From Fibrobacterota bacterium (lineage in GTDB: Bacteria > Fibrobacterota > Chitinivibrionia > Chitinivibrionales > FEN-1185), in assembly GCA_003165595.1 (NCBI GenBank), contig PLWQ01000010.1, forward strand, positions 50,226 to 114,225: a stretch of 64,000 nucleotides of DNA, written 5' to 3'. Of this stretch, positions 28,105-49,073 are shown piece by piece (positions within the stretch are counted from its first letter, which is position 1; each line of letters starts with the position of its first letter). The notes under the pieces are model-generated. The model saw only the letters and a list, made by a program, of their open reading frames with translations, was not told the origin of the DNA and ran no database searches. A program made the translations under genes and the position numbers.

Positions 28105-28909
28105 TGGGCGCCCCGCTGCATCAACAAAATGAAGGCTTGGGCGTTGCCCTCGCCACGCTCGGGTCGTTTATAACACGCCCTTCCTGTTGGGCGTGTTGAA
28201 TCTCCGTGCTCGGCCATGCGGCCTCGTTGCCGGTCCGCCCTATGCGCCTTTGGCGCGGGCCGGCCGGCAACGCGCTCCAGCGCGCACTCCGGTCCAGCTA
28301 ACGCGGCGCAGAGGAGTGTTGGCCAATCGTCAATGAAGGCCAATGCGATTTAGATTTGTCTATTCTTGGGCTTGATTTCCGCCATCAGCGCCGCCCCATG
28401 AGACCGGCAGATTGGTCCGCTCGCGCTGTTTGCACCAGCGGCACTGCAAGCGCGGTTTCGCCACTGATGGAGGAAGAGAAGACGGCGCAATTGGTTTTTG
28501 CCCAATCCTTTTTTCGACGTCGATACCTCCGATGTTCTCGGGCATCGTGCATTTGGTCTTGTGTTCCCCCTCAGCGGCGGCCCGGAGGCCGGAGGTTTGG
28601 CCGCCTTGTGTTGTCCGAGTTCGGCATCTTGGTACAAAGTCTGCTGTTGTCCTGCCGGGTGAGCCGGAGCACAGGATGTGCGGAGACCACTGCCGAAGGC
28701 AGCCCGGAGGGCGCGGAGCTGGATGCGGAGCGTGAATTCACAAGCGGCCCGACGGCCGAAGGATCAGCCGACGCTGCGGGGCGGCGTTTTTTGCTCACTT
28801 TCTTTCGCTGCAGAAAGAAAGTGAGTCTGGGTTCGGGAGTGAAGCTCCCGACTCTGTTGGTCGCAGGTGCCGGGGGGCGACCCTCCCGGCTCCGAATATG
28901 CGAAGGCCG
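28105..28909 (+). repeat. GC-rich dispersed element, long copy C
   Basis: Same ends as copies B and D (GGGCGCCCCGC on the left, GCGAAGGCCG on the right) but about 800 bp because of extra internal blocks. Hairpin 1 is 28794-28825 (CTCACTTTCTTTC, loop GCTGCA, then the complement), with a stem unrelated to those in B and D but the same loop as D. Hairpin 2 is 28833-28851 (TCGGGAG, loop TGAAG, CTCCCGA). It lies about 120 bp before the promoter of the first giant gene. Confidence 0.75.
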
Positions 28910-29030
28910 TTTTACTTCCCTCTTATCAGCCCGAACGCAACAGGGTAGTGCCCACCGGCAGCGCCGGGAATCCCCACAAATTGTCATTTGTTCATCGCTT
29001 TGCAACAAAGGTACCGTAATTGATTTGAGG

Positions 29031-29059
29031 TTGTCTGAATCACTGCTTCATGGTATAAT
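29031..29059 (+). promoter_or_regulatory. Sigma70-type promoter of giant gene A1
   Basis: TTGTCT (29031-29036), a 17-bp spacer and a perfect TATAAT (29054-29059), about 99 bp upstream of the ATG at 29158. The same design is found before A2 and B2. Confidence 0.7.
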
Positions 29060-29157
29060 AAAGGGATGGCAATACGATCAGCCATTGCATCAGCGAAGCA
29101 ACCTCATTTCCCTGTGCGTGCCCAGCCGTATCATAGCTGCTTTCTCGAGACGACCCA

Positions 29158-32100
29158 ATGCTAGACGCCGCCATTTTCCGGCCGCTGTTCGCTTTATCGC
29201 TGGTTGTGCTGGCTATGCTGCCGGGTCCGATCATGGCGGCAAATACCCTTGACAACCTGGGGCTGAGTTCAGGGACTCCGGCTGCCGGGGCATATTCCGT
29301 CCGGAAATTGAGCAGCAGTTATGCCGGCAATGCAATCTCGGTGCGGCGCAGCAGCGACAACACGGCGCAGGACATCGGGTTTACGGCCGGCGGCGACCTG
29401 AATCAGGCGGTATTGCTTTCCTTTGTGGGGTCGGGCAGCGGCTATGTCGCCACCTGGTACGACCAGAGCGGTAACGGCGCCGACATAACCCAGGCAACCG
29501 CCGCAAATCAGCCGAGGATTATTGCCGGCGGGGTGATTGAAACAAACAATATCAGGCCTGCCGTTCGTTTCGGCGGCGCTGTCCAAAACTTGACGGTTGC
29601 AACTCCGGTGAGCACATACCCCGTTTCCATTTCCGTCATGGCAAGTACTGCGGGCGGCTCGACAAACGGCGCTTTTGTGAAAATTGGGCAACCTGCCGCG
29701 CCCAATTGCGGAATAGCAATCGGCGTCGGCAATCCGGATCTTGACGGCGCGGGGACTTTCGTGGTTGGACTCAAGGAATACTCGGCCTGGTGTGAATCCA
29801 ATCCGACCGTCAGTTATCCGGCATCGCCTTTCACCATGGTTGCCATCCACCAGAACGCCGCAGGCGGGAACACCTTCTCGGCCTATCTGGACGGCGCCAA
29901 TGTTCCTTTGAACGGCGCGACGACCGCTCCCAACGGGACCATAGCCGGCAATCTGTATGTTGGCGGTTACGTGAGCAATACGCCAACCAACAGGTTCGCC
30001 CTGGCCTGGCAATCCGAGGTACTCATTTTCGGGTCTGCGCTGTCCAACGCGGACCGGCAGACCATTGAGTGCAACCAGCAATCTTATTATGCCATCGTGG
30101 CGCCTGCAACGGTTGGGGTCGCGCAATCCATTTGCGGTTCGCTCACAAGCAACAGTCTTGGCGGCAACACGCCGAGCCTGGGCAGCGGCGCATGGAGCAA
30201 GGTGTCCGGCCCGGGGACTGCTAGTTTCAGCGCGCCTGCGGCGGGGAATTCCACGGCCACGGCGAGCGTGTCGGGAACCTATGTGCTGCGCTGGACAATC
30301 ACCTACAACACCTGCGCAAGCTCCGCCGACATTACCGTCAATTTTCTTGGCTCGGGCACGCTGCCCACGGCCAATGTAACCGGCAGCGCGTCGATTTGTC
30401 CCGGCGTCCCCACAAATGTATCCGTGTCGTTGACCGGAACTGCACCCTGGAGCCTCACGTACAGCGACGGCACCAACCCGACCAATGTGACCGGGATCGC
30501 GAGTTCGCCGTATATTTTCAGCGTGGCGCCAACGACGGCAAAGACATACACGGTCACGGCATTGACTGATGCTTCCTGTTCGGCACAACCATCCGGCCTC
30601 ACCGGCTCCGCGGCAATAACCATCGTCAACGGTACGCTTGGAACAACCCAGAATGCAGCAGGAGCCTATTCGTTGCGGAAGGTGAACAGTTGCTACGCCG
30701 GCTATGCCATAACGGTACGGCGCAGCAGCGACAACACCACGCAGGACATCGGGTTTACCGCAGGCGGCGACCTGAATCAGCCGGCTCTGCTTTCCTTTGT
30801 CGGAGCGGGCAGCGGATACGTTGCCAAATGGTATGACCAGAGCGGCAATGGCGCGGATATCACCCAGGCAACGGCGGCAAATCAGCCGAGGGTTGTCAAT
30901 GCCGGGATAGTAGAAACGATCAACGGCAAGCCCGCGGTTTACTTTGGCGGTCCTTCCCAGAATCTGTTTGTTTCCGTGCCGGTAGCAGCGTACCCGATTA
31001 CGGTGTCGATTCTGGGAAACACGGTCGGCGGCTCGTCGAATGGTGCATTTGTAAAGGTCGGGCAGGATCAGGCGCCCAATTGCGGGATAGGAATCGGCAT
31101 TGGAAACGGGACCATGGACGCCTCGGGAACCGCCGTGATAGGCCTCAAGGAAAACGCCTCCTGGTGCCCGTCGAATCCGACCGTGGCTTACCCTGCATCG
31201 GCATTCACCATGGTTGCCATCCAGCAGAGCGCGGCGGGCGGAAGCGGCCTTACCGCGTATCTGAACGGCGCAGCCGTCACCCTGAACAGTGCCGCAACCG
31301 CCACGAACGGAATCACGATCACCGGCAACTTGTATGTGGGAGGATACCTGGCAAACGGATCGAACAACAGGTATCCGGTGGGCTGGGAATCGGAAGTGAT
31401 TGTATTCGGCTCAGCGCTTTCCGACGGAGACCGTCAGACCGTCGAGTGCAGCCAGCAGTCGTATTACGGTATCACTGCAAAAGCCGCGGCGGGAGTGGCC
31501 CAATCCATATGCGGTTCCTTGACAAGCAATAGTCTTGGCGGCAACACCCCGGCCCCGGGCAGCGGCGCATGGAGCAAGGTGTCCGGCCCGGGGACCGTTA
31601 TTTTCAGCGCGCCTGCGGCGGGGAATTCCACGGCCACGGCGAGCGTGTCCGGAACCTATGTGCTGCGCTGGACAATCACCTACAACACCTGTACAAGCTC
31701 CGCCGACATTACCGTCAATTTTCTCGGCTCGGGCACGCTGCCTACCGCCAACGTCACCGGCAGCGCATCGATATGCCCGGGCGCTGCAACCAACGTCTCG
31801 GTCGCGCTCACCGGAACGTCGCCCTGGAGCCTTACGTACTTTGACGGGACCACCTCGACGAATGTGACCGGAATCGTCGCTTCGCCCTATGTTTTCGGTG
31901 TGGCGCCGACGGTCACAAAGACCTATACGGTAACGGCGCTCACGGATGCCAGCTGTTCGGCCCAGCCTTCCGGACTCACCGGGTCGGCGGTGATCACCAT
32001 AAGTAATCCGGTTCTGGGAACAACCCAGAACGCCGCGGCCGCCTATTCGGTGCGAAAAATAGCCGGCTGCTACAGCGGCAATGCCCTCACGGTGCGGCGC

Positions 32101-34164
32101 AGCAGCGACAACGCAACGCAGGATATCGGTTTTACGGCGGGCGGCGATCTGAATCAGGCCGCATTGCTCGCATTTGTCGGGTCGAGCAGCGGGTATGTTG
32201 TCAAATGGTATGACCAGAGCGGCAACGGCAATCATATCGTTCAGGCAACAACGGCAAATCAACCGAGGATCGTCAACGCCGGTGTCGTGGATCAGATCGG
32301 CAACAGACCCACGCTTTACTTTAGCGGACCTTCTCAAAATCTGGCCGTTGCCGTGCCGGTGACGGCATATCCCCTCACGGTTTCCATTCTGGCGAACACG
32401 TCCGGCGGTTCGTCTAACGGCGCGTTTATAAAGATAGGGCAGGACGCGTCGCCCAATTGCGGAATAGGCATCGGCATTGGAAACGGCACCTTGGACGCTG
32501 CCGGGACAGCCGTGATCGGCCTCAAGGAAAATGCCGCCTGGTGTCCGTCCAATCCGGTGGTCAATTATCCGGCGGCGGCGTTTACCCTGGTCGCCATCCA
32601 GCAAAGCGTGGCAGGGGGCAGCGGCCTTACGGATTATCTCAACGGCACTGCCGTGCCATTGACAAGTGCGACAACCGCCACCAACGGAACCACTATCATC
32701 GGCAACTTGTATGTGGGCGGCTATCTCGCCAACGGGACCAGCAACCGCTTCCCGGTAGTCATGGAATCCGAGGTGATCCTTTTCGGCTCCGCACTTTCGG
32801 ACCCGGATCGGGGAACTATAGAAACCAGCCAGAAGAACTATTTCGGGATCGTTCCCGTGGCACCAACCGCCTCGAACGTTTCTTTCAGCGGAGCGTTCAG
32901 TATCGGCAGCGTCGAAACAGGATCGTACACCTATTCCGACGGCAACGGTGATCCCCAGGCAACCTCAACCTTCAAATGGTACCGGTCCAACGACGCGCTC
33001 GGTACGGGGAAGACCGCAATTGCCGGCGCAACAAGCCTTACCTACACTCTCACGAGTTCGGATGACGCCAAGTACATCAGCTTTGAGGTGACACCGGTGT
33101 CTTCTGTCGCGCCGACCACGGGCACACCGGTGGAAAGTGCGCTCCGCGGCCCGATGAATCAAATTTCTTCGGTCTGGAGCATGACCTCGCTCGGGGCCAT
33201 TTTGGGCGGCGCAATAGGCGATAACTCGCTCTTCCTCGGCACCGGGTCCGCCAAGCAGCTTCTGTCACGACAGCTTTCTAACGGTAATTCCCTCTGGTCC
33301 TATGCAACGCCAAATGGAAATTGCGGTTCACCGAGCTATGCTTTTGTCGGTTCAAACTACGACCTCGTTGCAGCGAATGGAACCTATGTAGTCGGCGTAC
33401 AGGACAACGGTGGAAGTTACACTGAACTGTTTACACCAAAGAATCTCGGATTCGCAGTTGGCAATCCCTACATCAGCATCGACAACAGCTCGTTCTTTTT
33501 CGTATGCAACAACACGATGTACGCAAAGAGCCTTGCCACGGGCGCCACCTTGTGGACGGCGCCCCTGTCCAACGCTTCGACCGGATCCGATATCGTCGTC
33601 TCCAGCGACTACATTTACGCACCGGCTTCCGATGGCGTTGTCAAGGGGGATGTGGTCGATTTTACGCCGCTTTCCAAATATACCATAGCCGGAAATCCCG
33701 GCATCAACCTGCCGCTTTCGGTTATGCACGACACGCTGTATGTTACCCCGAACAGCAATAAGCTGTATGGCGTGAGCGTGACGAACATGACGACTCTCTA
33801 TTGGCAAGCGACACTCGGGGCAACCAACTCCGCTCCTGCTTTTCCCGTATACAACTCGAGCAGTGTTTATGTAGGCGCCGGGACCGCAGTTCAGAAAGTG
33901 CAGGGCGGGTCCGTGGTGTGGACGTACGATGTGGGTGCGACGATAACCGGCGGGCCCATCATGATGAACGGCGTCGTCTATTTCGGCACAAGTACCGGCA
34001 AATATTATGCCGCGCGTGACAATGGCGCAACGTATGCCGCCGTTGCCAAGTGGCCGGTGACTACCGCGTCGGGAAGCTGCACCTGCGTGTGGATCGATCA
34101 AACGAACAGCCGGGTAATTTTCAGCACCGACGGCGGCAACCTTGATGCGTTCCCGCTGCAGTAG
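29158..34164 (+). CDS. Giant secreted protein A1: three GH54/LamG-like modules plus beta-propeller
   Basis: A 1668-residue exported protein (signal peptide LFALSLVVLAMLPGPIMAA). Three tandem modules of about 460 residues begin near residues 40, 495 and 955. Each contains the pattern YSVRKLxxxYxGxAxxVRRSSD, then QDIGFTAGGDLNQA and WYDQSGNGxxxxQAT, as in the catalytic/LamG-like domain of GH54 alpha-L-arabinofuranosidases and related lectin-like proteins. The first two modules are followed by Ig/PKD-like segments (GSGAWSKVSGPGTxxFSAP). After another Ig-like domain (about 1240-1325) comes a PQQ-like propeller from about 1335 to the end (VWSMTSLGAILGG at its start, NLDAF near its end), shared with A2 and A3. 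No T9SS sorting domain is visible. B1 follows after a short gap. Confidence 0.85.
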   Translation: MLDAAIFRPLFALSLVVLAMLPGPIMAANTLDNLGLSSGTPAAGAYSVRKLSSSYAGNAISVRRSSDNTAQDIGFTAGGDLNQAVLLSFVGSGSGYVATWYDQSGNGADITQATAANQPRIIAGGVIETNNIRPAVRFGGAVQNLTVATPVSTYPVSISVMASTAGGSTNGAFVKIGQPAAPNCGIAIGVGNPDLDGAGTFVVGLKEYSAWCESNPTVSYPASPFTMVAIHQNAAGGNTFSAYLDGANVPLNGATTAPNGTIAGNLYVGGYVSNTPTNRFALAWQSEVLIFGSALSNADRQTIECNQQSYYAIVAPATVGVAQSICGSLTSNSLGGNTPSLGSGAWSKVSGPGTASFSAPAAGNSTATASVSGTYVLRWTITYNTCASSADITVNFLGSGTLPTANVTGSASICPGVPTNVSVSLTGTAPWSLTYSDGTNPTNVTGIASSPYIFSVAPTTAKTYTVTALTDASCSAQPSGLTGSAAITIVNGTLGTTQNAAGAYSLRKVNSCYAGYAITVRRSSDNTTQDIGFTAGGDLNQPALLSFVGAGSGYVAKWYDQSGNGADITQATAANQPRVVNAGIVETINGKPAVYFGGPSQNLFVSVPVAAYPITVSILGNTVGGSSNGAFVKVGQDQAPNCGIGIGIGNGTMDASGTAVIGLKENASWCPSNPTVAYPASAFTMVAIQQSAAGGSGLTAYLNGAAVTLNSAATATNGITITGNLYVGGYLANGSNNRYPVGWESEVIVFGSALSDGDRQTVECSQQSYYGITAKAAAGVAQSICGSLTSNSLGGNTPAPGSGAWSKVSGPGTVIFSAPAAGNSTATASVSGTYVLRWTITYNTCTSSADITVNFLGSGTLPTANVTGSASICPGAATNVSVALTGTSPWSLTYFDGTTSTNVTGIVASPYVFGVAPTVTKTYTVTALTDASCSAQPSGLTGSAVITISNPVLGTTQNAAAAYSVRKIAGCYSGNALTVRRSSDNATQDIGFTAGGDLNQAALLAFVGSSSGYVVKWYDQSGNGNHIVQATTANQPRIVNAGVVDQIGNRPTLYFSGPSQNLAVAVPVTAYPLTVSILANTSGGSSNGAFIKIGQDASPNCGIGIGIGNGTLDAAGTAVIGLKENAAWCPSNPVVNYPAAAFTLVAIQQSVAGGSGLTDYLNGTAVPLTSATTATNGTTIIGNLYVGGYLANGTSNRFPVVMESEVILFGSALSDPDRGTIETSQKNYFGIVPVAPTASNVSFSGAFSIGSVETGSYTYSDGNGDPQATSTFKWYRSNDALGTGKTAIAGATSLTYTLTSSDDAKYISFEVTPVSSVAPTTGTPVESALRGPMNQISSVWSMTSLGAILGGAIGDNSLFLGTGSAKQLLSRQLSNGNSLWSYATPNGNCGSPSYAFVGSNYDLVAANGTYVVGVQDNGGSYTELFTPKNLGFAVGNPYISIDNSSFFFVCNNTMYAKSLATGATLWTAPLSNASTGSDIVVSSDYIYAPASDGVVKGDVVDFTPLSKYTIAGNPGINLPLSVMHDTLYVTPNSNKLYGVSVTNMTTLYWQATLGATNSAPAFPVYNSSSVYVGAGTAVQKVQGGSVVWTYDVGATITGGPIMMNGVVYFGTSTGKYYAARDNGATYAAVAKWPVTTASGSCTCVWIDQTNSRVIFSTDGGNLDAFPLQ

Positions 34165-34220
34165 GGGAGAGAAATAGACTGTGCGGGTATTTGACGGACA
34201 GTAATCGGAGAATGATTTCT

Positions 34221-35948
34221 ATGGTACGTTTCCGCGGACCGAGCATCACTCGAAAAATCCTTGGCACCAGCCTGTTCACTCTGGCATTTGCCGGCGCTCA
34301 TGCATTCGCGGATTCCTGGCCCTGTTTTCGGGGCAACCCGCAACGTACCGGCTTTTGCCGCGAAACAGTTGGAATCCCGTCTGGAAAGCCTGCGTGGAAA
34401 CTTGCCCTGGGTTGCAATCTGGTCAGTTCACCGTCGGTGGTTGATGGCGTGCTGTACATCGGCGGCAGGGACAGTGCGCTGTACGCAATCAGCGCCGCCG
34501 ACGGAACCGTACAATGGAGATGCAAGACCGGCAACTGGGTTGACGCTTCGCCGCTTGTGCATGGAAACAGCGTGATTGTCGGGAGCAGAGACAACAGCAT
34601 CTACGTCGTTGACAAGCTCACGGGAAACGTTGCGGGCCGCCTGCCTGCCGGGATACAACTGTCTTCGCCATGCATCACGGATGCCGGCATGCTGCTCTCC
34701 GGGATCGGTCTGCCGGCGGGCGGCGTTGCCGCCTTCGGCATCGATCCGTCGCAACTGAAAAAGGCAAAGGCCCTATCGTCGATATCTCTTCCGCAATACA
34801 CCTATTCGTCGCCGGCGGTGTTCGGTCAGGCCGCCGTGGTCGGCTCGACAAACGGATTCCTTTATGGCATCGACGTGGGCGGAATGGATACGATCTGGAG
34901 CCTGCCGACGGCAGGCGGGACCTATCTCTCAACACCTGCGATAGACAATACAACTGTGTATTTCGCGCCAGGCGATGCGGACAAATGCGTGTATGCCGCG
35001 GACCTTTTGACAGGCAGGGTTGTCTGGAAAAGTCAAACCGCAACACAGCCGGAAACGATGTCGAATGTATTGGGAAAGAAGGTCGCCGCAGGGACCGTTC
35101 CATCCTCGTTCCTGGCGCAACTGCCGAGAATGAGCCCGGCAAATCGCAGGCAAACAATAGAACGTCTTCGCAACCTGGGCTTTGAGCTGCCGGGGCCGGG
35201 GGCTGTGGGTCTGGGCAAGAAGTCAGAAGACAGCAGCCGGACTTTCATTGCGCTCGATGAGATAAAGACGTCATCCGTCGCCGTGAATCAGGAAAACGTC
35301 TTCGTCATCCAGAAACAACTTGGATACGTGCTCGCAAACGACAGTACGGTTGACGACAAGCAGGAATTCAGGATGCAAGCTCTTGACAAAAAGACAGGTA
35401 CATCCGTGTGGAGTTTTAGCGAGTGCCGCAGCTGCATCCATCTGGGCTATTGCTCTTCCCCCGTTGCAACGAAGAATACGGTTTTTTTCGGCTGGGGAGA
35501 AGGCAGGCTGTACGGGCTTGCCGCACAGACCGGTGAGGTGCTTTGGATGGATTCCGTTCAGGGAAATGTCATCTCATCTCCGGCAATTTCTTCGGGACGT
35601 CTTTTCGTTGCAACGATGGACGGATTTGTGTATGCCTACAATCTCGATGCTACCGCTCCCGGCCTCGATTTTCAAACCAGCACCTATTGCTATCCCAATC
35701 CTGCACGCGGCAGCGTTTCCCATTTGCAGATGTACGTGAACAAGGCAGGCGTTGCGGACGTGACGCTGTACAACACCGCCGAAAAGCCCGTGCTCAGGTT
35801 CTCCCGCCAGCTCGCTGCGGGCGAAAAGGACGTCTACGACTGGGACATCTCGCGTGTCGCCAACGGGGTGTATTTTGCATTGGTAAAGGTGCAATACGCG
35901 GACGGCTTAAGCGACAGGAAGCTCGTCAAGGTGGCGGTGCTGCATTAA
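34221..35948 (+). CDS. Secreted PQQ-like propeller protein B1 with T9SS sorting domain
   Basis: A 575-residue exported protein: signal peptide (ILGTSLFTLAFAGAHAFA), then WPCFRGNPQRTG and a propeller of PQQ-type blades (LYIGGRDSALYAISAADGTVQW, SSPAVFGQAAVVGSTNGFLYGIDV, YFAPGDADKCVYAADLLTGRVVW). The last 85 residues form a T9SS type A domain (STYCYPNPARGSVSHLQMYV, then DISRVANGVYFALVKVQYADG). ATG 34221 is chosen because GGAG lies 10 bp upstream; an ATG at 34212 is too close to it. The gene follows A1 by about 55 bp, in an operon. It is a paralogue of B2. Such proteins bind or display rather than catalyse; no quinone-dehydrogenase residues are recognisable. Confidence 0.85.
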   Translation: MVRFRGPSITRKILGTSLFTLAFAGAHAFADSWPCFRGNPQRTGFCRETVGIPSGKPAWKLALGCNLVSSPSVVDGVLYIGGRDSALYAISAADGTVQWRCKTGNWVDASPLVHGNSVIVGSRDNSIYVVDKLTGNVAGRLPAGIQLSSPCITDAGMLLSGIGLPAGGVAAFGIDPSQLKKAKALSSISLPQYTYSSPAVFGQAAVVGSTNGFLYGIDVGGMDTIWSLPTAGGTYLSTPAIDNTTVYFAPGDADKCVYAADLLTGRVVWKSQTATQPETMSNVLGKKVAAGTVPSSFLAQLPRMSPANRRQTIERLRNLGFELPGPGAVGLGKKSEDSSRTFIALDEIKTSSVAVNQENVFVIQKQLGYVLANDSTVDDKQEFRMQALDKKTGTSVWSFSECRSCIHLGYCSSPVATKNTVFFGWGEGRLYGLAAQTGEVLWMDSVQGNVISSPAISSGRLFVATMDGFVYAYNLDATAPGLDFQTSTYCYPNPARGSVSHLQMYVNKAGVADVTLYNTAEKPVLRFSRQLAAGEKDVYDWDISRVANGVYFALVKVQYADGLSDRKLVKVAVLH

Positions 35949-36356: not shown

Positions 36357-36374
36357 AGGATTTGCATTAATTCT

Positions 36375-39300: not shown

Positions 39301-41195
39301 TTCCGGCCGGTGGTAAACCCGGCCAGGGAAGTGTGGTTGCCGTTCGCAATTGCAAAGTTACCGGTTACCGAAATATCATGTCCGTTGAGATTGAGGGTGC
39401 CCGCGGTTTGCGAAAACGAGGCCGCGCTCAAATTCGCGCCGGAAATCTGCAGCGTGCCCGGGCCGGATTGCACAATGCCGGGAAGCGTTTGGCCGGAAGC
39501 GAGCGTGAGCACTTGTGTGCCGCTGCCGGCAAACCACAGCGTGCCGCCGCCGGACGTTATGGACATGCCCGCAAAATTGACGGATGCTCCCGTGTCGACA
39601 AGGATCGAAGAACCGAAGTCCAGCGTTCCCGAGCCGGAAATACTTCCCGCAGTGTCAAGAAACCCGCTGCCCAGGCCGAAGGTTCCGGAAAGGATGGTGA
39701 GCTTAACCGTGCTGAACCCCGCGCCGGTGACCGTGGTTGCGCCTGTCCCCGCCCTCACGATTTCGGGGAAAAGCTGTCCCGGCTTGGGCGTAAAGTTTTC
39801 CGAGTACCTGAATTGAAGAACTCCCGAAGCCGGAATGATTGATCCTCCGGTGGAAAAGTCGGCGCTGCTCAGAACGGTAAGAGTATCGGTTGTAAAGACG
39901 AACGTTCCGGCGTATGCCGGTTTGAAAGTGACGGTGAACGCTTTGGCGTTGACGTCGAGCGTACAGCTCTTTGCGGATGTGATGTCGAAAAGAACGTTGC
40001 TGGTCGAATCGGGAACGGTCTGGCCGAACCAGTTGTTCGCGTCACTCCATTTGCCGCCGGTTCCCGAACCGGTCCACGTTTTGTACTGCGGCATAACGGC
40101 AGTTTCGGACCCTATAACAAGCGCGTTTGCCGTTGCTTTCTGGGTATTGTACGCCAGCGTGATCCAGTCGGCCGATCGCGCCACCTTGGACATGCTCAAC
40201 TCATCGATCGATCCGTTGAATTCGACCGCCCACGCGAGCCCGCGGCCGATTTCCCAGGTTGTTAAAGCCGTGGCGGAAGCTGTATTGCAGCCGCTGCCCG
40301 CAGACGCGTTGTTGGTCGCCTGAAGAGCGCCATCGACGTAGATCGAGTAGTTTGTGCTGCCGCTTCTTGTCCCGGCGACAAAATGCCAGTTCCCATCGGC
40401 GATATTCGTTGTGCCCTGGGCTCCGTATTCGCAGCCCGCGCCGTCGTTGGAAAAGTACGCGTTGCCGTTGGACGCGGCGACTCCAGCCCACCATCCGACG
40501 TGCAGGCTCAGGGAACGGTCATTGGCATTCTGGCGATTGGTGATTACCATGCCTGCGGAAGTGCTCGACGTTTTTACCCAGGCGGCTTCCGTCCAGTCGC
40601 TCATGTTCGCTGGCGGCGCCGCAATGCCGGTAAAGTATTGCGTGGAGCCGTTAAACGAATATCCTTTGGCGACATCGCCGGCGGCTGATGTCGGCGCGGG
40701 CGAGGAAGACGACGCCTTGTACCCGTTGGCAGTTGCGTCGGTGGTGTCCGAAAGATGCCAAGCGCCTACATAGCCGCTTCCGGTGTCGAACACAACCTTG
40801 CCGTTCGAACTGTCGGCCGCGGAGCCTTTCCCATAGAACATTTGGAACATGTACACCGAATCGCTGGCGTGGACCGAGTCTATCCGAACCCAGATTTCAG
40901 CCGAGTCATTGCTTACCCAGCGCTCGATCTGATAGGGAATATGGTTGCCGTTGGTGTCGGCGAATCGAATGTCGCCGCCGTTTGCCTGCGCATTGCTAAA
41001 AGAGAAGTTTGAGGTGTTGAGCCGTACCAGGAAAGGGAAACGGGTTACGGGAGTGGTAATGTTTGCACCGCTCGCCTTGGTGTTGATGGAGCACTTGCGG
41101 TAATAGTTCCACGCCCCGTAGTTGTCCTGAGCGGCCGTTTGGACCGCAACCAGCGAGAAAAAGAGGAGTGCGGCGCACGCAAATTTCGCGCTCAT
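36375..41195 (-). CDS. Giant secreted protein A2: duplicated DUF2341/LamG modules plus beta-propeller
   Basis: A 1606-residue exported protein (signal peptide ACAALLFFSLVAVQTAA). Order by residue: DUF2341 at about 30-137 (FPFLVRLNTSNFSFSNA, then EIWVRIDSV), a LamG/concanavalin-like domain to about 365, a beta-rich stretch at 370-690 of Gly/Ser repeats with NLNGHDISVTGNFAIANG, a second DUF2341 at 705-822, a second LamG to about 1035, an Ig-like domain at 1050-1155, a fibronectin-III-like domain at 1158-1262 (SVTLGWTPATDVNFKNYEL) and the shared propeller from 1267 (VWSKTNLGAIRGG) to NLDAFKIQ. The two DUF2341/LamG halves are close copies. No T9SS sorting domain is visible. It diverges from B2 and is a paralogue of A3. 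Confidence 0.85.
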   Translation of the reverse strand: MSAKFACAALLFFSLVAVQTAAQDNYGAWNYYRKCSINTKASGANITTPVTRFPFLVRLNTSNFSFSNAQANGGDIRFADTNGNHIPYQIERWVSNDSAEIWVRIDSVHASDSVYMFQMFYGKGSAADSSNGKVVFDTGSGYVGAWHLSDTTDATANGYKASSSSPAPTSAAGDVAKGYSFNGSTQYFTGIAAPPANMSDWTEAAWVKTSSTSAGMVITNRQNANDRSLSLHVGWWAGVAASNGNAYFSNDGAGCEYGAQGTTNIADGNWHFVAGTRSGSTNYSIYVDGALQATNNASAGSGCNTASATALTTWEIGRGLAWAVEFNGSIDELSMSKVARSADWITLAYNTQKATANALVIGSETAVMPQYKTWTGSGTGGKWSDANNWFGQTVPDSTSNVLFDITSAKSCTLDVNAKAFTVTFKPAYAGTFVFTTDTLTVLSSADFSTGGSIIPASGVLQFRYSENFTPKPGQLFPEIVRAGTGATTVTGAGFSTVKLTILSGTFGLGSGFLDTAGSISGSGTLDFGSSILVDTGASVNFAGMSITSGGGTLWFAGSGTQVLTLASGQTLPGIVQSGPGTLQISGANLSAASFSQTAGTLNLNGHDISVTGNFAIANGNHTSLAGFTTGRKITAGGNATLTGQSSSTLLYLASAGYDTLAVSGTLSATYDSISYNYAKVSPGNGYVCQNGGNNTNWNFDFDDYSTWQHRQKVYFNTTSQGTAIGVTVANFPVCVQLNAANFSTGFGQCQASGQDIRFSLLDGTHLKYQKEFWNSGTQTAACWVLVPSIVKSSKIQAIVMYWGKGSATDMTNGPAVFDTANGFRGVWHLTDTTDATFNAFKASSSSPAPASSAGNIGNAYSFNGTTQYFTGIAAPAANLSDWTEGAWVKTSSTSAGMVLTNRQNAADRSLSLDVGYYGSTNNANGNVYYSSDGPTCEYGAQGSTNIADGNWHLITGVRSGTSNYLVYVDGVLQATNNASIGAGCSGTTANSATAWEIGRGLAWGIKWTGSLDEVTMAGVARSADWIALCYGTQVQNSRTVNLVNPIVWGINDSSAATAYQRDKDTGVASYRTTDPNNSSVTISAQYKTAVGGSWTAISTATGAAGAGIDTIVTSNKSLRWKVSSEPGAGVEANYVVRVIASDGTNKDTSQTSPFFVDTKAPSGLANLRPTAVGVYSVTLGWTPATDVNFKNYELRYDTIESNVQNRLGNLWDNTKEPALGTATDSTTSITGLLSQKKYYFKIWAIDSWGNTVALPDTNATTVSSITAVWSKTNLGAIRGGSLGQSVMYITGSKDSIYSITAATGAQNWAAYTGTYGTTGMPTYVFVGGKYVVVVNAGTYVLGRRDDGSSCADLFDLNLSSATGTPYTSPDDSSFYVAYGGNLTKRRIADGGAIANFPVAVPNISTAADMVVQKDNVYVGTTDGKLLKGDSYDFTPLSTFDPGTGAAIQLPLMLVGTTLYATPNVSKLYAVNSSNMARKWASDLLLPAPNTGPLFMDSASKHVYLAAGTNVCRATDNGAGGSLDWTYTAAGTVSSGPIPIKGYIYFGAGNGWYYAVNDTSHGAKTNWPYTGASGNSNTGPWIYLPTGSDSLVIFGTSGNNLDAFKIQ

Positions 41196-41279: not shown

Positions 41280-41330
41280 GGGAAATCGCCCGCATTATGT
41301 GAAAAATCAACCCAGTACAACCGACTCTTG

Positions 41331-41359
41331 TTGATTTCGCGGCTTACTAGCGGTATAAT
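41331..41359 (+). promoter_or_regulatory. Sigma70-type promoter of B2
   Basis: TTGATT (41331-41336), a 17-bp spacer and a perfect TATAAT (41354-41359). The MITE at 41370 starts 10 bp after it, so the transcript would start at or just inside the MITE. Confidence 0.65.
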
Positions 41360-41369
41360 TGTAGTCATA

Positions 41370-41556: not shown

Positions 41557-41618
41557 ATACGAGAACTGCCCCGTTTCCTCACTCCCTTAACGCGGTTTGC
41601 GTAGACTAGGGTATTCGC

Positions 41619-43292
41619 ATGAGTATTGCAATCTGCAGGATGATTTTTCTGACAGTGGCGCTTGCAACGGCTACGTGCATGGCTGCAGACTGGCCCACGT
41701 TCCGGGGAAACCCTCAGCGAACGGGATATTATCCGGATCCGGCCGGATATCCCCAGGATAAGACTCTCCTTTTGCATCTGCCGTCCGTGCCGTTCGTTTC
41801 GTCTCCGTCGGTCGTAAGCGGCATTCTTTATATAGGGGCACGAGACAGCACGTTGTATGCGGTGGATGCAACAAACGGAAACGTGGTATGGAAGAAAAAA
41901 ACCGCGGGCTGGGTCGACTCATCCCCGCTCCTCTTCGACGACAATGTCGTTGTAGGCAGCCGTGACGCAACGGTGTATATGCTCGATTCCCGCAGCGGCG
42001 CCCAGGTGTCGCTGCTGGAAGGCGGGATACAGCTTTCTTCCCCTGCGGTTCTTGCCAGCGGAGTGATCATAACGGGCCTCGGACCGCCTTTTGCCGGGGT
42101 ATCGGGCTACATACGGGGACTGGAAAAAAGGTCAAAGGCCCAGCGCGTGCAGGCGGCATGGTCCCTCAGCCTCCCGCAGATGTCGTACTCGTCGGCCGCG
42201 ACGTACGGCCAGTTCGCGGCGATCGGGGCGGATGACGGAAGGCTGTACGGGCTTGACGGACAGGAAGGGAGAATAGTGTGGAGTCTTCCCACGGGCGGAG
42301 GCGTGTACTTGTCCACGCCCGCCATCGACACGCGGGAACTTGCCGTGTATTTCGCTCCCGGTGAGGAAGATTACTCCGTGTACGCCGTGCGCTTGACAGA
42401 CGGTAAGCTGTTGTGGCAAAGCGAAGGTGCGCCGGCCCGGGCCCTGTCCAAGAGACTCCGCGCCAGTCCGATTTCCTATTCCCGGATGGAGAGCCTGCTT
42501 CGTCTGAGCCCCAAGGACCGCCGGCAAGCCCTCGGCAAAACCCAGGGGAAACTTTCGGCCCTTGCGGATGCCGACAGCTGGATCGCCACCGGCGGCGCCA
42601 AAACCTCCTCAGTCGCCGTTGACGACCGGAATGTGTACGTGGTGCAGAAAGCCCTTGGCCTGCTTCAAACGAACGATACACAGGGAACAGGTCTTTCGTA
42701 CATGCCCCGTTTTACTCTTCTGGCTCTTGACAAAAAGACCGGTTCCGAGAAGTGGCGTTTTTCCGAACTCGCAAACTGCGTGAGGGTGGGATATTCCTCG
42801 TCGCCGGTGGTTACGGATCACATAATTTTCGCAGGCTGGGGCGGCGGCATGCTTCACGCGGTGGACAAGGAAAGCGGAAAATGCATGTGGTCCGACACAC
42901 TGGCCGGCGACATCATTTCTTCTCCGGCCATCGCCGGCGGCAGGCTGTATGTCGCCACGATGAACGGTTACCTCTATTCCTACAATCTTGCCGCTACCGC
43001 ACCCGGACTCGATTTTCAAAGAAGCACCTACTGCTATCCGAATCCGGCCAGGGGTACGGTTTCGCATGTCCAGGTGTACGTTTCCCGGTCTGCAACCGTA
43101 GACATAACGGTCTACAATTCCGCAGACAAGGCCGTGGTCACAATTTCGCGCCCGTATTCGGCGGGGGAGAAATCTCCCTGCGACTGGGACATCTCGCATG
43201 TCGCCAACGGCGTGTACTTCGCTCTTGTGAAGGTGAAATACGCCGACGGCACCAGCGAAAAGAAAGTTCTGAAGGTGGCGGTGCTGCATTAG
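41619..43292 (+). CDS. Secreted PQQ-like propeller protein B2 with T9SS sorting domain
   Basis: A 557-residue paralogue of B1. A signal peptide (ICRMIFLTVALATATCMAA) is followed by WPTFRGNPQRTG, then propeller blades (LYIGARDSTLYAVDATNGNVVW, AAIGADDGRLYGLDG, IFAGWGGGMLHAVDKESGKCMW) and a T9SS type A domain (STYCYPNPARGTVSHVQVYV, then DISHVANGVYFALVKVKYADG). The ends of B1 and B2 are almost identical (KVAVLH). Its promoter and a MITE lie in the 423-bp region shared with the divergent A2. A3 follows 407 bp downstream. Confidence 0.85.
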   Translation: MSIAICRMIFLTVALATATCMAADWPTFRGNPQRTGYYPDPAGYPQDKTLLLHLPSVPFVSSPSVVSGILYIGARDSTLYAVDATNGNVVWKKKTAGWVDSSPLLFDDNVVVGSRDATVYMLDSRSGAQVSLLEGGIQLSSPAVLASGVIITGLGPPFAGVSGYIRGLEKRSKAQRVQAAWSLSLPQMSYSSAATYGQFAAIGADDGRLYGLDGQEGRIVWSLPTGGGVYLSTPAIDTRELAVYFAPGEEDYSVYAVRLTDGKLLWQSEGAPARALSKRLRASPISYSRMESLLRLSPKDRRQALGKTQGKLSALADADSWIATGGAKTSSVAVDDRNVYVVQKALGLLQTNDTQGTGLSYMPRFTLLALDKKTGSEKWRFSELANCVRVGYSSSPVVTDHIIFAGWGGGMLHAVDKESGKCMWSDTLAGDIISSPAIAGGRLYVATMNGYLYSYNLAATAPGLDFQRSTYCYPNPARGTVSHVQVYVSRSATVDITVYNSADKAVVTISRPYSAGEKSPCDWDISHVANGVYFALVKVKYADGTSEKKVLKVAVLH

Positions 43293-43504
43293 AAAAAGGA
43301 GCGAGAATCGAGTAGCGAGAATATTAAATTAGAAAAAGATTCATCTGGATTGCTGAGCCCGTGCGGCGTGGTAGGGACCGCTGCGAGACCAAAACTTCTG
43401 CTGCGCGCACGATAGAAACGCCCGGTGAAACAAGATCAAAGACAACTATTTCCGAGTTTGATATTCTGCTTTGCCAAGCTCAACGGTTTGGCATTAACCC
43501 GTTT

Positions 43505-43642
43505 GTCCAGCGCCAGGGCGGACGGCAGAGTGCGCTGGAGCGCAGGGCTGCCTGACCGCGCCGTGAGGCCTAGCGGCAGGCAGCACCGAGGCCTTGGCCG
43601 AGCTCGTACGGAGGCCCGCCGCCGCAACGCGGCGGGGCGCCC
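43505..43642 (-). repeat. GC-rich dispersed element, inverted partial copy E
   Basis: Complement of the left part of the element: GCGCCAGGGCGGACGG, GCAGGCAGCACCGAGG, ending GCGGCGGGGCGCCC at 43642. It lies within a 407-bp interval, 57 bp before the start of A3. Confidence 0.65.
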
Positions 43643-43699
43643 AGATCTCTATTTTTCAAAAAAATATTTGTTTGCGCGCACAGTAGAAATACCCGATTC

Positions 43700-46600
43700 A
43701 TGAAATCGAAATGCCTAGACAAAATACAATTCGCGAAAAGGCATTTCCGCCATTCTCTTTCCATTGCGGTAATTATTGTCCCCTGCGTATTCCTGTCGAG
43801 TTCTGCCCAGGAAAACTACGGCAACTGGAGCTATTATTGCAAATGTTCCATCAACACCAAAGCAAGCGGCGCCAATGTGCCCGGCGGGGTTGGCCGTTTT
43901 CCCCTGCTGGTGCGGCTTACTGCTTCCAATTTCAGCTTTGCACATGCACTTGCCAGCGGCGGCGATCTGCGGTTTGCCGACACGACCGGGAAACATCTGC
44001 CGTATCAACTGGAACGCTGGAGCTACAATGATTCCGCAGAAGTATGGGTCAGAATCGACTCGGCAAAGGGAAACGATTCGTCCTTTGCGTTCTTTATCTA
44101 TTACGGCAATTCCGCCGCGGTCGATAGCTCCAGCGGCAGCGCGGTATTCGATACAGGAAACGGTTTTTATTCATTGTGGCATTGCAACCAGTCGCCGTCC
44201 ATCCTCGACGCAACGGCGAACGCGAGCACCGGCATGGTGCAGGGAACCGCCTCGGTCGCCCGTTGCGTGATAGGCAACGGCCTTGTTCTCGACGGAAACA
44301 GCGCGTACTTCTATGGATCGAAACAAACGTCGGCCAACCCCAATCCTTTTACCCTGTCGGCCTGGTTCAAGACCGCGGCCTCGTTCAGCTCCGGCGGAAA
44401 AATCATTGGGCTGGGAAGCAGCAATGTCGGCAACAGCTCCTCCTACGACCGCCACATCTGGATCAATGATGACGGAAAGCTTTACTACGGTTGCTATCCG
44501 AATTCCGCCAAGACCATAGGCAGCACGTCAACCTACAAGGACGGTGCATGGCACTACGTTGTTGGAACTTTGTCAACCGCCGGCGAAATCCTGTACGTCG
44601 ACGGGCAGCAAGTCGGCATCGATGCTACGACAACCGCGGCCTGGCCCAATTACACTGCTCCTTACTGGAGGGTTGGCCAGGACAATCTCAATAGTTGGGC
44701 TCCGACGCCTTCCGGAAACTGGTATTTCAACGGTTCCCTTGATGAAGTGAGCATTGCCGCTGTCGCTCGCAGTTCCAGCTGGGTCGCCTTGTGCTATGGT
44801 TCACAAAAACCCGGCTCCAACGCCATTGCCATCGGCGCGGAAGTCGCCAATGTTCCGCAGTACATTACCTGGGTGGGCAACGGCGCCGATTGCAAATGGA
44901 GTACCGCCAATAACTGGTACGGGCAGGTGGTGCCCGATTCAACCATGAACGTCAAATTCGATGTGACGTCGAGCAAGACATGTAGTCTTGACGTAACGGG
45001 AAAAGCAAAAACGATCACCTTTACAGGCCAGTACACGGGCAATTTCTGCTTCACAAACGATACGCTTGCGGTGTACGGTGCCGCAAGTTTCTCGACAGGA
45101 GGGGCTGTTTCGGCCGGCACGGGCGTTCTCAAATTCGTGAACTCGCAGGTTTTTATTCCCGCAACGGGACAGACATTCCCAACCGTCCTGCGATCGGGGG
45201 CGGGAACAACGACGCTGCAAACAACCGGGCTTGTGGCGTCAAGCGTGATTGTCCAGGCTGGCACCTTTTCGCTCGGCGTCGGGCTTGCCCACACGGTGGT
45301 TGCGATCTCGGGATCGGGCGCTCTCGACTTTGGATCGTCATCGCTCACCGATACCGGCGCGAGTCTCGACCTGAGCACGTTCTCTTCGGTAACCGCCGGA
45401 AGCGGAACGCTTGCGTTTGCCAGAAACAACAGCCAGACGTTGACTCTTAAGAGCGGACTCACCCTGCCGTCAATCGTTCATTCCGGATCCGGAACTCTCC
45501 AGATCGCCGGCGCCAACCTGAGCGCCGCTTCGTTTTCGCAAACAGCGGGCACCATCGATCTCAACGGCCACGACATCCAGGTGACCGGGAATTTCTCCAT
45601 CGCCAACGGCACCCACACGAGTTTCGCGGGCTACGCCACCGGTCGCACGATTTCGGTGGGAGGGAACGCCACGCTCAACGGCTTGTCGAGCACGACGCTT
45701 TTGTATATGGCATCCGCGGGGTACGATACCATGGCGGTTACCGGAACACTCACGGGAACCTACGATTCCATCGATTATAATTACGCGAAAATCTCCCAGG
45801 GATACGTGTCAAACAGCATTGACGGGACGCATAACTATCATTGGAACTTCGATCCCGACAATTACGGTAGCTGGAGCTACCGGCGCGCGGTATTCCTCAA
45901 CACCACGGTGCAAGGGACAAAGATATCTTCATCGATATCCCAGTTTCCCGTTTGCATAAAGCTGAGCGGTTCCAACTTCGATTTTACCCAGCCCTCCGAC
46001 CCCAACGGCGCCGACATGCGTTTTTCCCTGCCGGACGGGACGCACTTGAGTTACGAAAAAGAATACTGGAACAAGGCTTCCTCCACGGCGGCTCTCTGGG
46101 TGCTGTTGCCTACCGTGCAGGCAAATATCAAGACGCAGTTCATTATCATGTACTGGGGGTCCGGCAGCGGTGTCGACCGTTCCAGTCCGTCAACGGTATT
46201 CAACACCGGGAGCGGCTACTTCGGGGTGTGGCACATGACGCAAGCCACTCCCAACATGCTTGACGCAACCAGCAACGGGGATACCGGCAAGGCGCAGAAT
46301 GCTCCCGTGGCGGCAACGGGAGTTGTCGGCCAGGCACTCACGCTCAACGGTTCGAGCCAGTACCTCTATGGCCTGAAAACCGCCGCCGTCAATCCAAATC
46401 CTTTCACGATTTCCACCTGGTTCAAGACCGGCGCGTCCTTCTCGACCGGCGGCAAACTGATCGGTCTGGGGACCAGCAGTACCGGCAACAGCGGTTCTTA
46501 CGACCGGCACATATGGATCCACGATGACGGCAAAATCTACTTCGGGTGCTGGATCGGCAGCGCGTCAACCGTCGGGAGCTCTTCCGCGTATAAAGACGGG

Positions 46601-48577
46601 AACTGGCACTATGCGGCCGCGACACTGTCGTCATCAGGACAGTTTTTGTACATCGACGGGCAACAGGTGAGTTCGAGCGGCAACACGACCGCCTACACCT
46701 ATGGATCGGCGCCCTATTGGCGCGTGGGTCAGGATGCGCTTGGCGGATGGACCCCGACTCCGGGCTCCACCTATTTCAACGGGACGCTTGACGAAGTCCG
46801 CATGGAGACCTCGGCGCGTAGCACAGACTGGATCGCTTTGAGTTACGGAACGCAGTGCAACGGACAACCGCCCGTAAATTACCAGAAACCCGTAGTGTTC
46901 GGGCCGGGCGGCGTAACCAACGATTCGGCGTTTCAAACGACAAAGGATACCGTTGCGTTGCTTTATCGCATGGACGATCCGGACACCAAGACGGACACGG
47001 TTTCCGCGCAGGTGAAAGTTACCGCCGGCGGCACGTGGTTCGGAGTGACCAACACCGCGGGAAACAGCGGACCGGTTGACACAGCATATTCTACGGATCG
47101 AACGATCAAATGGAGCGTCCGCAGCCAGCTTGTCGACACGGCGGAAGGTTACTATAGCATTCGTGTTATCGCGGTTGACGCCGGCGGCAACCGGGACACA
47201 AGCACGAGTTCTTCGTTTTACATCGACACGCGGCCGCCCGTCGGCCTGGCGAATTTCCGTCCCACCCTGGAAGGTGTGTCAAGCATAACGCTCGGGTGGA
47301 CTTCCGCCGCAGACCCACATTTCGATCACTACGAAATCTGGTACGACACCGACTCGCTCAAAGCGGTCACTCACGCCGGAAACACCTGGAATCAGACAAA
47401 TGACCCGGCCTTTATCACCGCGACGACATCGGCAACCACGATAACGGGATTGGGGCTGACGACAAAGTACTATTTCAAACTGTGGGCGTTTGACAGTTGG
47501 GGCAACGGTTCCACGGTGAAGGACACCAGCGCGAGCACGACGCCGACGGTAGCGTCCAAGTGGAGCGTGAACACCCTCGGTGCGATTGCCGGCGGGGCGA
47601 TGGGGCAGAACGCTCTGTACATCTCGGGAATCGGGTCTGGTTCCGCAGACAGCATCTACAGCATAAACGCGGCGACCGGCGCAGAGAATTGGTCCTACTA
47701 CGTAGGAGGCTATGGGACGCCGGGTTATCCGACCATGACCTATTACGGCGGGAGTTACAAAGTTCTGGAGAGTGTTGGAAGCACGGTGGTTGGACTCACC
47801 GACAATGGCGGGAATGCAACGCAGTTGTTTGCACCGCTCAACCTGGGGGCGGTGACGGTGGGAGTGCCTTACGCGAGTCCGGACGACAGCAGTTTCTACG
47901 TTCCGTACACGGGTAACTTGACTAAGAGGAGATTGAAAGACGGATCACAACTGTGGACCGTTGCCGTTGGCAATATCAGCGCCAATGCCGACATCGCGGT
48001 CTTTCGGGACCTGGTATATTTTGCGGCGACTGATTCGGTTGTCAAGGCAGATGCGTATGATCTCACCCCGATGTCCGCCTACAACACGGGCTCGACTATT
48101 GCCTTGCCGCTTCTGGTGCTCGATTCGACGATGTATGTGACGCCGAACAATAACAAGCTGTATGCGGTGAAGACTTCAAGCATGGCCTCCAAGTGGACGA
48201 GCGCTTTTACGCTTCCCGCTGCCAACACCGGTCCGGCATTTTACGACAATGGTTCAGTCTATGCATCGGCCGGAAGCTACGTGGTAAAAGTGAGCGATGG
48301 GGGGGTGTCCGGCAGTCTGGTGTGGCAGTTCGGCGCCAGCGGCACGGTAAACTCGGGAGCCACCTCCTACGGGAAAACGATCTATTTCGGAACGAGCACC
48401 GGGTATTATTACGCACTAGACGATGTGTCGCATGGTGTAAAGACAAACTGGCCCCGTACGGGAGCAAGCGGCAACGCCAACGCGGGGCCCTGGATCTATG
48501 TACCCACAAGCTCAAGCGACACGCTGGTGATTTTCGGAACGAGTGGGAACAATCTCGACGCGTTTAAGAAACCATAA
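43700..48577 (+). CDS. Giant secreted protein A3: duplicated DUF2341/LamG modules plus beta-propeller
   Basis: A 1625-residue paralogue of A2 with the same order of parts: signal peptide (SLSIAVIIVPCVFLSSSA), DUF2341 (FPLLVRLTASNFSFAHA), LamG, a beta-rich stretch (IDLNGHDIQVTGNFSIANG), a second DUF2341 and LamG, an Ig-like domain, a fibronectin-III-like domain (SITLGWTSAADPHFDHYEI) and the shared propeller (LGAIAGGAMGQNALYISG to NLDAFKKP). Its LamG modules differ in detail from those of A2 (KTAASFSSGGKIIGLGSSN), so ligands may differ. No clear ribosome-binding site precedes the ATG. No T9SS sorting domain is visible. Element copies E and D flank it. Confidence 0.85.
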   Translation: MKSKCLDKIQFAKRHFRHSLSIAVIIVPCVFLSSSAQENYGNWSYYCKCSINTKASGANVPGGVGRFPLLVRLTASNFSFAHALASGGDLRFADTTGKHLPYQLERWSYNDSAEVWVRIDSAKGNDSSFAFFIYYGNSAAVDSSSGSAVFDTGNGFYSLWHCNQSPSILDATANASTGMVQGTASVARCVIGNGLVLDGNSAYFYGSKQTSANPNPFTLSAWFKTAASFSSGGKIIGLGSSNVGNSSSYDRHIWINDDGKLYYGCYPNSAKTIGSTSTYKDGAWHYVVGTLSTAGEILYVDGQQVGIDATTTAAWPNYTAPYWRVGQDNLNSWAPTPSGNWYFNGSLDEVSIAAVARSSSWVALCYGSQKPGSNAIAIGAEVANVPQYITWVGNGADCKWSTANNWYGQVVPDSTMNVKFDVTSSKTCSLDVTGKAKTITFTGQYTGNFCFTNDTLAVYGAASFSTGGAVSAGTGVLKFVNSQVFIPATGQTFPTVLRSGAGTTTLQTTGLVASSVIVQAGTFSLGVGLAHTVVAISGSGALDFGSSSLTDTGASLDLSTFSSVTAGSGTLAFARNNSQTLTLKSGLTLPSIVHSGSGTLQIAGANLSAASFSQTAGTIDLNGHDIQVTGNFSIANGTHTSFAGYATGRTISVGGNATLNGLSSTTLLYMASAGYDTMAVTGTLTGTYDSIDYNYAKISQGYVSNSIDGTHNYHWNFDPDNYGSWSYRRAVFLNTTVQGTKISSSISQFPVCIKLSGSNFDFTQPSDPNGADMRFSLPDGTHLSYEKEYWNKASSTAALWVLLPTVQANIKTQFIIMYWGSGSGVDRSSPSTVFNTGSGYFGVWHMTQATPNMLDATSNGDTGKAQNAPVAATGVVGQALTLNGSSQYLYGLKTAAVNPNPFTISTWFKTGASFSTGGKLIGLGTSSTGNSGSYDRHIWIHDDGKIYFGCWIGSASTVGSSSAYKDGNWHYAAATLSSSGQFLYIDGQQVSSSGNTTAYTYGSAPYWRVGQDALGGWTPTPGSTYFNGTLDEVRMETSARSTDWIALSYGTQCNGQPPVNYQKPVVFGPGGVTNDSAFQTTKDTVALLYRMDDPDTKTDTVSAQVKVTAGGTWFGVTNTAGNSGPVDTAYSTDRTIKWSVRSQLVDTAEGYYSIRVIAVDAGGNRDTSTSSSFYIDTRPPVGLANFRPTLEGVSSITLGWTSAADPHFDHYEIWYDTDSLKAVTHAGNTWNQTNDPAFITATTSATTITGLGLTTKYYFKLWAFDSWGNGSTVKDTSASTTPTVASKWSVNTLGAIAGGAMGQNALYISGIGSGSADSIYSINAATGAENWSYYVGGYGTPGYPTMTYYGGSYKVLESVGSTVVGLTDNGGNATQLFAPLNLGAVTVGVPYASPDDSSFYVPYTGNLTKRRLKDGSQLWTVAVGNISANADIAVFRDLVYFAATDSVVKADAYDLTPMSAYNTGSTIALPLLVLDSTMYVTPNNNKLYAVKTSSMASKWTSAFTLPAANTGPAFYDNGSVYASAGSYVVKVSDGGVSGSLVWQFGASGTVNSGATSYGKTIYFGTSTGYYYALDDVSHGVKTNWPRTGASGNANAGPWIYVPTSSSDTLVIFGTSGNNLDAFKKP

Positions 48578-48600
48578 CGCAAATATCAATTAGAAGATAT

Positions 48601-49073
48601 GGGCGCCCCGCTGCATCAACAAAATGAAGGGTTGGGCGTTACCCTCGCTATGCTCGGGTCGTTCTCCCTGCGGGCTCGGCTATTCGCCTCGGTGCTGCCT
48701 GCCCTATGGCCTGTCGGCCCGGGTCAGGCAGCCCTGCGCTCTCGCGCACCACTCCGGTCCAACTAACGCGGCGCAGAGGAATGTTGGCTATACGCCAATC
48801 ACTGCTTTTTCCGATTCGCTTTGATTTTCTCTTTCGTATTCCGCCATCAGCGACGCCCCTGAGGCCGGCAGATTGGTCCGCTCGCGTCGTTCAAGGCCGG
48901 CATCTTTTGAGGATTGGGAAGATATCCTGCCGGACGCGTTTGCGAGCGGCCTGGCGGCCTCAGGAATTGGCGGCGCTGCGGGCGCGGCGCGGGGTTCCAA
49001 GGGGAGTTCGCTGCAGAACTCCCCTTGGTCGGGGTTCGGGGGTGAAGCTCCCGACATGGTTTGTGCGAAGGCC
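48601..49073 (+). repeat. GC-rich dispersed element, full copy D
   Basis: Starts GGGCGCCCCGC 23 bp after the A3 stop and ends GCGAAGGCCG. It holds the block GACCGGCAGATTGGTCCG in the form GGCCGGCAGATTGGTCCG, hairpin 1 at 48996-49027 (CCAAGGGGAGTTC, loop GCTGCA, perfect 13-bp stem) and hairpin 2 at 49035-49053 (loop TGAAG). Confidence 0.75.

Follow-up and report, generated by a model that had tools for sequence, protein, structure and literature searches.

Paired propeller proteins in a Fibrobacterota surface-protein cluster, and their association with a conserved cysteine-rich peptide, a radical SAM enzyme and exopolysaccharide genes

We analyzed a 64,000-nucleotide stretch of Fibrobacterota DNA (the window; contig C16 of a 5.39-Mb assembly, 98% complete), in which positions 28105 to 49073 encode three giant secreted A proteins (A1, A2 and A3) and two smaller secreted B proteins (B1 and B2). 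Because A and B are co-present in a survey of 167 genomes and adjacent in all readable junctions, a functional link between them is well supported at the level of sequence and gene order. We propose that they form a two-protein module for cell-surface display, in which B would be an adaptor exported by the type IX secretion system (T9SS) and A a lectin-like arm docking by its propeller; we see the chances of this reading as about even. The window carries extra copies of this module; its complete form, with a peptide and exopolysaccharide genes, is found elsewhere in the genome of the window and in six relatives, and points to a mode of bacterial surface construction that has not been described.

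Results

The survey covered 167 genomes of the phylum (Fibrobacterota-type), all draft or unnamed assemblies, with several loci cut by contig ends; some are 68-93% complete, and absence from these or from one contig is weak evidence. Counting A as present at E <= 1e-10 and B at 1e-30, we found A in 6 genomes and B in those same 6 plus G157, in which the contig breaks off where B begins. Profile E-values reach down to 1e-180, which excludes chance. The hypergeometric probability of the co-occurrence is 3e-10 naively and 2e-6 at the genus level, with genomes treated as independent. The genome of the window (G000) has two further A-B pairs on contigs C10 and C6, giving totals of five A and four B, and G001, the sole other genome of the same genus, has neither. 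In 9/9 readable junctions (window A1-B1, G000:C10, G000:C6, G041:C78, G041:C55, G003, G002, G009 and G007), A immediately precedes B on one strand, with gaps of roughly -52 to +78 bp. The distance matrices of A and B correlate (r 0.82 over 9 pairs, Mantel p 2e-4), to which shared ancestry contributes. The sequence-only reading of this DNA had suggested that B may be the anchor or partner of A, and the joint presence and adjacency support such a functional link; the two families were not found mostly apart. A profile of the six closer A propellers matched records from two Chitinivibrionales metagenome-assembled genomes and one Candidatus Raymondbacteria metagenome-assembled genome.

Our open reading frame calls and domain scans agree with the earlier description of the five secreted genes, their sizes, and their order of A1-B1, A2 divergent from B2, and then A3:

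29158..34164, plus strand: A1, 1668 aa, secreted; three GH54-catalytic-like (lectin-fold) units, Ig-like spacers, C-terminal propeller
33169..34161, plus strand: A1 C-terminal propeller, LGAILGG ... NLDAF
34191..35948, plus strand: B1, 585 aa from TTG; Sec signal, WPCFRGNPQRTG opener, BamB/PQQ-like propeller, T9SS type A tail
35691..35945, plus strand: B1 T9SS type A sorting domain (TIGR04183, 29.6 bits, cut-off 23)
36375..41195, minus strand: A2, 1606 aa, secreted; DUF2341 plus LamG twice, C-terminal propeller
36378..37397, minus strand: A2 C-terminal propeller
41619..43292, plus strand: B2, 557 aa, divergent from A2; Sec signal, WPTFRGNPQRTG opener, propeller, T9SS type A tail
42435..42557, plus strand: helical insertion in the B2 propeller, residues 273-313 (AlphaFold model)
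43035..43289, plus strand: B2 T9SS type A sorting domain (TIGR04183, 27.7 bits, cut-off 23)
43700..48577, plus strand: A3, 1625 aa, secreted; DUF2341 plus LamG twice, fn3-like, C-terminal propeller
47555..48574, plus strand: A3 C-terminal propeller

For B1, translation more likely begins at the in-frame ATG at 34221 than at the TTG at 34191; the gap from A1 to B1 is 57 bp with the former and 27 bp with the latter.

The A proteins share their ends and differ in their fronts, as had been noticed from the sequence. A1, A2 and A3 all terminate in a common propeller of ~335 residues, running from LGAIxGG to NLDAF, with 43-57% identity to that of A2. By Pfam scans, A2 and A3 carry DUF2341 and LamG in two stretches each, and fronts at other loci contain LamG, DUF2341, PA14, GLEYA, fn3, G8-like or Ig-like domains, or match no family. 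Behind every variable front stands the same propeller, at the extreme C-terminus of each intact A, and no type A or type B T9SS sorting domain was present at the C-terminus of any A protein scanned (Pfam/NCBIfam). In A1, the GH54-like triplet of the sequence-only reading is present as three repeated units spaced every ~1375 bp, each matching only part of the catalytic domain PF09206. PF09206 passes its Pfam cut-off, with the best stretch spanning profile positions 7-90 of 315. Since the matches span only about a quarter of the domain, A1 appears more likely to be lectin-like than enzymatic, and we rejected its identity as a GH54 arabinofuranosidase, for which a complete catalytic domain would be expected.

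B1 and B2, 50% identical, proved to be the paralogous pair that had been described, with a PQQ-like (pyrroloquinoline quinone) propeller of PQQ_2/BamB-like repeats and, at the C-terminus, a T9SS type A domain that the A proteins lack; this layout hardly varies among B proteins. A and B are less separate than that description implied: the A propeller is also PQQ-like and a distant homologue of that of B, with the A profile matching B proteins at 1e-10 to 1e-17. Cargo of the T9SS must bear a C-terminal domain, and cargo of type A is carried by PorV (PMC12618676). B qualifies as type A cargo, having a sorting domain over the TIGR04183 cut-off and SprA of the T9SS translocon in its own genome; SprA scored above its cut-off in 7/8 genomes tested. 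Unlike with TIGR04183, both tails fall under the cut-off of 27 of Pfam Por_Secre_tail (B1 20.2, B2 26.3). An AlphaFold model of B2 (pLDDT [predicted local distance difference test] 82.9, pTM [predicted template modeling score] 0.75) shows a propeller that contains a helical insertion, together with a sandwich at the C-terminus; among natural folds, BamB, tetrathionate hydrolase and YxaL are nearest to it, and designed propellers are also close. B was rejected as a PQQ-dependent dehydrogenase (TIGR03075, 53 vs cut-off 480). A variable A front together with a near-constant B layout is what a display arm and its docking unit would be expected to look like.

Fuller A-B loci outside the window, including that on C6, add a PorV/PorQ-family barrel, a ~54-aa Cys-rich peptide and, mostly, a PqqD-like chaperone and a radical SAM/SPASM enzyme. 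The barrel, of ~320 aa, adjoins A-B in relatives and at C6. It scores 90.9 and 97.7 with NF033709 (PorV/PorQ family, cut-off 90) and stays below the equivalog cut-offs for PorQ (47.8 and 63.9 vs 220) and PorV (25-26 vs 250). The radical SAM enzyme passes the cut-offs of PF04055 (79.6 and 78.2) and SPASM PF13186 (53.0 and 42.6), and its subfamily occurs in 5/167 genomes, all of which have B. Just ahead of it lies the PqqD-family protein (PF05402, 44.4 and 40.3 vs 23.4), with homologs in G000, G002, G003, G009 and G041:C55. These enzymes fall short of all equivalog cut-offs for PQQ biosynthesis, mycofactocin and SynChlorMet systems (PqqE 107-129 vs 381; mycofactocin 113-122 vs 265; ScmE 92-122 vs 400; ScmD 23 vs 100).

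At C6 the locus runs on into DegT, WbqC, glycosyltransferases, O-antigen ligase, Wzz, polysaccharide export (Wza) and NTP_transf_5, and includes an HprK-like protein and an S24/signal-peptidase-like protein, recognized from weak profile matches and a conserved P-loop. In general, the HprK-like kinase and S24-like peptidase are encoded either close to A-B or on a separate contig, in most cases accompanied by exopolysaccharide genes. The order NTP_transf_5, HprK-like, S24-like recurs in G003, G007 and G009 on contigs other than those of A-B, and in G157 the latter two stand beside the peptide, B and barrel genes. Strong HprK-like matches (below 1e-40) were obtained in 6/7 B genomes and in no other genome. 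The very divergent second pair of G041, at C55, has HprK-like, PqqD, radical SAM, S24-like, peptide, A and B genes in a row. Neither the window nor C10 yielded a peptide, PorV-like barrel or radical SAM gene when searched; therefore, the window is an A/B expansion away from the peptide, exopolysaccharide and T9SS locus.

Several further genes were seen at or near such loci. In G157 (L095:3291-4169), a gene for a GldK/PorK-like lipoprotein (TIGR03525, 80.7 bits, below the cut-off of 350) separates the PorV-like barrel gene from the HprK-like gene. In G041 (L057:4850-6901 and L057:6935-8485), a third T9SS-tagged protein with Sortilin/BNR-like repeats directly follows the divergent A/B pair. The C6 locus encodes two HD-domain (c-di-GMP [cyclic diguanylate] phosphodiesterase-like) proteins (L063:1397-2752 and L063:15870-16898), one of them between the radical SAM gene and the peptide, and a c-di-GMP input to this locus is possible. 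In three relatives without A/B (L127, L128 and L129; G011:C93, G039:C208 and G006:C133), a related HprK-like, PqqD, radical SAM/SPASM and S24-like operon is directly downstream of flagellin.

The peptide is near-invariant, with the consensus PKYSPPxVESExIFERRALACGKCRSGPxxQxACMRLPSVS, and a profile search detects it in the seven B genomes and in no others. Weak matches in seven other genomes (E 0.002-0.008; six lie in frames of 118-162 aa and the seventh in a frame of 572 aa) were taken as chance. The pN/pS (ratio of nonsynonymous to synonymous changes) is 0.24 over the last 39 codons, which indicates a real, constrained gene. G041 has two peptides, matching its number of A-B pairs, and the genome of the window has one peptide locus. 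The peptide gene is right before A in G009, G007, G041:C78 and G041:C55, ending 10-18 bp ahead of it in the first three. The peptide has three Cys and an ALA/ALG-Cys point, and it ends in Ser in 7/7 main-family members. Such features are typical of a product modified by a radical SAM enzyme, and the peptide is probably chemically modified; the ALA/ALG-Cys point would be suited to cleavage by a signal-peptidase-like enzyme. The locus has the components of a ribosomally synthesized and post-translationally modified peptide (RiPP) system with a radical SAM/SPASM maturase, namely the radical SAM and SPASM domains, PqqD and a nearby conserved small precursor.

Discussion

Based on these findings, we suggest a mechanism for the A-B module. 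Both proteins carry Sec signals. B would then be exported by the T9SS, received from the translocon by the PorV/PorQ-family barrel and attached to the surface, while A, having no sorting signal, may be retained at the surface, or brought there, through its invariant C-terminal propeller by B or by the ligand of B. Since B has a T9SS domain and A has none, a model in which an exported, anchored B holds or carries A by the A propeller is the most economical one. In this way A would display exchangeable lectin-like arms; the modular adhesion or substrate binding proposed by the sequence-only reading fits the variable LamG, DUF2341, PA14, GLEYA and GH54-like N-termini, from which this function is inferred. 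The small Cys-rich peptide would be matured by the PqqD/radical SAM pair, with the S24-like peptidase and HprK-like kinase acting alongside. Because the fuller locus adds the peptide system inside an exopolysaccharide locus, the module would most likely assemble a peptide-linked surface matrix, and the A/B copies of the window may rely on the single fuller locus on C6. The data show the architecture, the conserved order of A and B, their co-occurrence and the presence of the peptide system and of the T9SS translocon gene; we infer B as an adaptor, the docking of A, the peptide chemistry and the peptide-glycan link, the last being plausible given the exopolysaccharide genes alongside. A more specific version, in which the Ser end of the peptide is phosphorylated and glycosylated (by the HprK-like and NTP_transf_5 proteins), primes or anchors the exopolysaccharide and is recognized by B, and by A via B, seems to us rather improbable.

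Several observations weigh against the display module. For the earlier idea of B as anchor or partner of A, the functional link stands through co-occurrence and adjacency, and there was no direct sign of contact: when the C10 A propeller and B, which are in one frame, were modeled as a single chain with the A stop (TGA) read through, AlphaFold on a shallow 10-row alignment returned a pTM of 0.46 and no confident domain arrangement. The A propeller alone was confident in this model (mostly 85-95 pLDDT). Gene order has its exceptions, in the divergent A2/B2 and in A3 without a following B in the window, and in some A genes of G007 without B directly after them. The co-occurrence counts take no account of shared ancestry. 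The radical SAM subfamily was undetected in G007 and G157, and PqqD at G041:C78, some loci being cut by contig ends. The A/B copies of the window and C10 do not need the peptide system in cis. How A crosses the outer membrane is left unexplained by the scheme.

The same genes can be read in other ways. The A and B propellers may be receptors for the matured peptide, which would serve as a cofactor-like or tag-like ligand, as PQQ does for quinoprotein propellers. The conserved peptide and PqqE/PqqD-type enzymes alongside expanded propellers (five A and four B for one peptide locus) recall the pattern by which mycofactocin and its enzymes were recognized (PMC3023750), and the four peptide genes right before A would suit such a pairing. 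We nevertheless consider a receptor role unlikely, since B is like BamB and YxaL while full PQQ enzymes align poorly, the Cys-rich peptide core is unlike PqqA or MftA, and no binding site was identified. Alternatively, the A propeller could itself be an export or sorting signal, with A and B as independent surface proteins that merely share regulation; its position at the very end of all intact A proteins, the lack of a known sorting domain in A and the occurrence of A3 without a following B would all agree with this. However, known T9SS signals are C-terminal domains of ~100-235 residues and not propellers (PMC12618676), and the strict A-B adjacency and co-occurrence would be unaccounted for, so we give this idea little weight.

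It is also conceivable that A and B are ordinary T9SS-era adhesins within an exopolysaccharide island, whose peptide system shares the island and not the function. The neighborhood at C6 is typical of exopolysaccharide synthesis, and the flagellin-adjoining operons show relatives of the HprK-PqqD-radical SAM-S24 set in another setting. The peptide is restricted to B genomes, however, and sits right before A in several of them, including at the very divergent second G041 pair, which makes mere neighborhood quite doubtful.

The display module recalls several known systems. One parallel is SprB-SprF of Flavobacterium johnsoniae and other type B C-terminal domain cargo with PorP/SprF shuttle pairs (PMC12618676), where a giant adhesin-like cargo is likewise beside a dedicated barrel partner; here, the giant A has no type B domain, the signal is of type A and on a second protein, B, and the barrel is of the PorV/PorQ family. 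PorZ, like B, joins propeller domains to a C-terminal domain, and the locus barrel passes the PorV/PorQ family model, but scores here are far under the PorV, PorQ and PorZ equivalog cut-offs. By profile and model, B shares the PQQ-like propeller fold of BamB and YxaL, to which it adds the T9SS tail and helical insertion; no enzyme role or role in the β-barrel assembly machinery is indicated. The PqqE/PqqD, mycofactocin and SynChlorMet cassettes are alike in having a small peptide, a PqqD chaperone, a radical SAM/SPASM enzyme and, in part, an HprK-like protein, whereas the present locus has a new peptide sequence, misses their cut-offs and is tied to T9SS propellers and exopolysaccharide genes. 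In the lasso peptides paeninodin and pseudomycoidin, which also involve an HPr-kinase homolog, a nucleotidyltransferase and a peptide ending in Ser, this C-terminal Ser is phosphorylated and then hexosylated (PMC8498205). Our locus differs in having a radical SAM enzyme, and no lasso cyclase was among the neighbors scanned, although no search aimed at cyclases was made.

In the fuller locus, T9SS surface proteins come together with a radical-SAM peptide pathway and with exopolysaccharide synthesis, three systems among which no link is known. Our literature search on T9SS together with radical SAM or RiPP found nothing relevant. The peptide family has no match in Pfam or NCBIfam and, unlike weapon peptides, is nearly invariant across several families of the phylum, which makes a structural, cofactor or linking role testable. 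If export of A depends on B, A would be a T9SS cargo secreted in trans via the signal of its partner; if the peptide-glycan reading is true, a ribosomal peptide would link polysaccharide to surface proteins.

Finally, the limits of the cluster (28105-49073) coincide with flanking intergenic repeats:

28100..28425, no strand: left-flank intergenic repeat; further copies at 24938-25265 and 48600-48886 (72-79% identity)
48594..49074, no strand: right-flank intergenic repeat; further copy at 24937-25456 (77% identity)

They belong to a dispersed family, 72-90% identical (24937-25456, 28100-28425, 36131-36358, 43486-43655 and 48594-49074), that flanks and interrupts the A/B cluster and has further copies elsewhere in the genome; these repeats may have helped the cluster expand. 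The spacer between the divergent A2 and B2 holds a 182-bp repeat (41381-41562), which is 91% identical to a copy on contig C10 (L096:13942-14123) and has shorter copies at 58347-58490.

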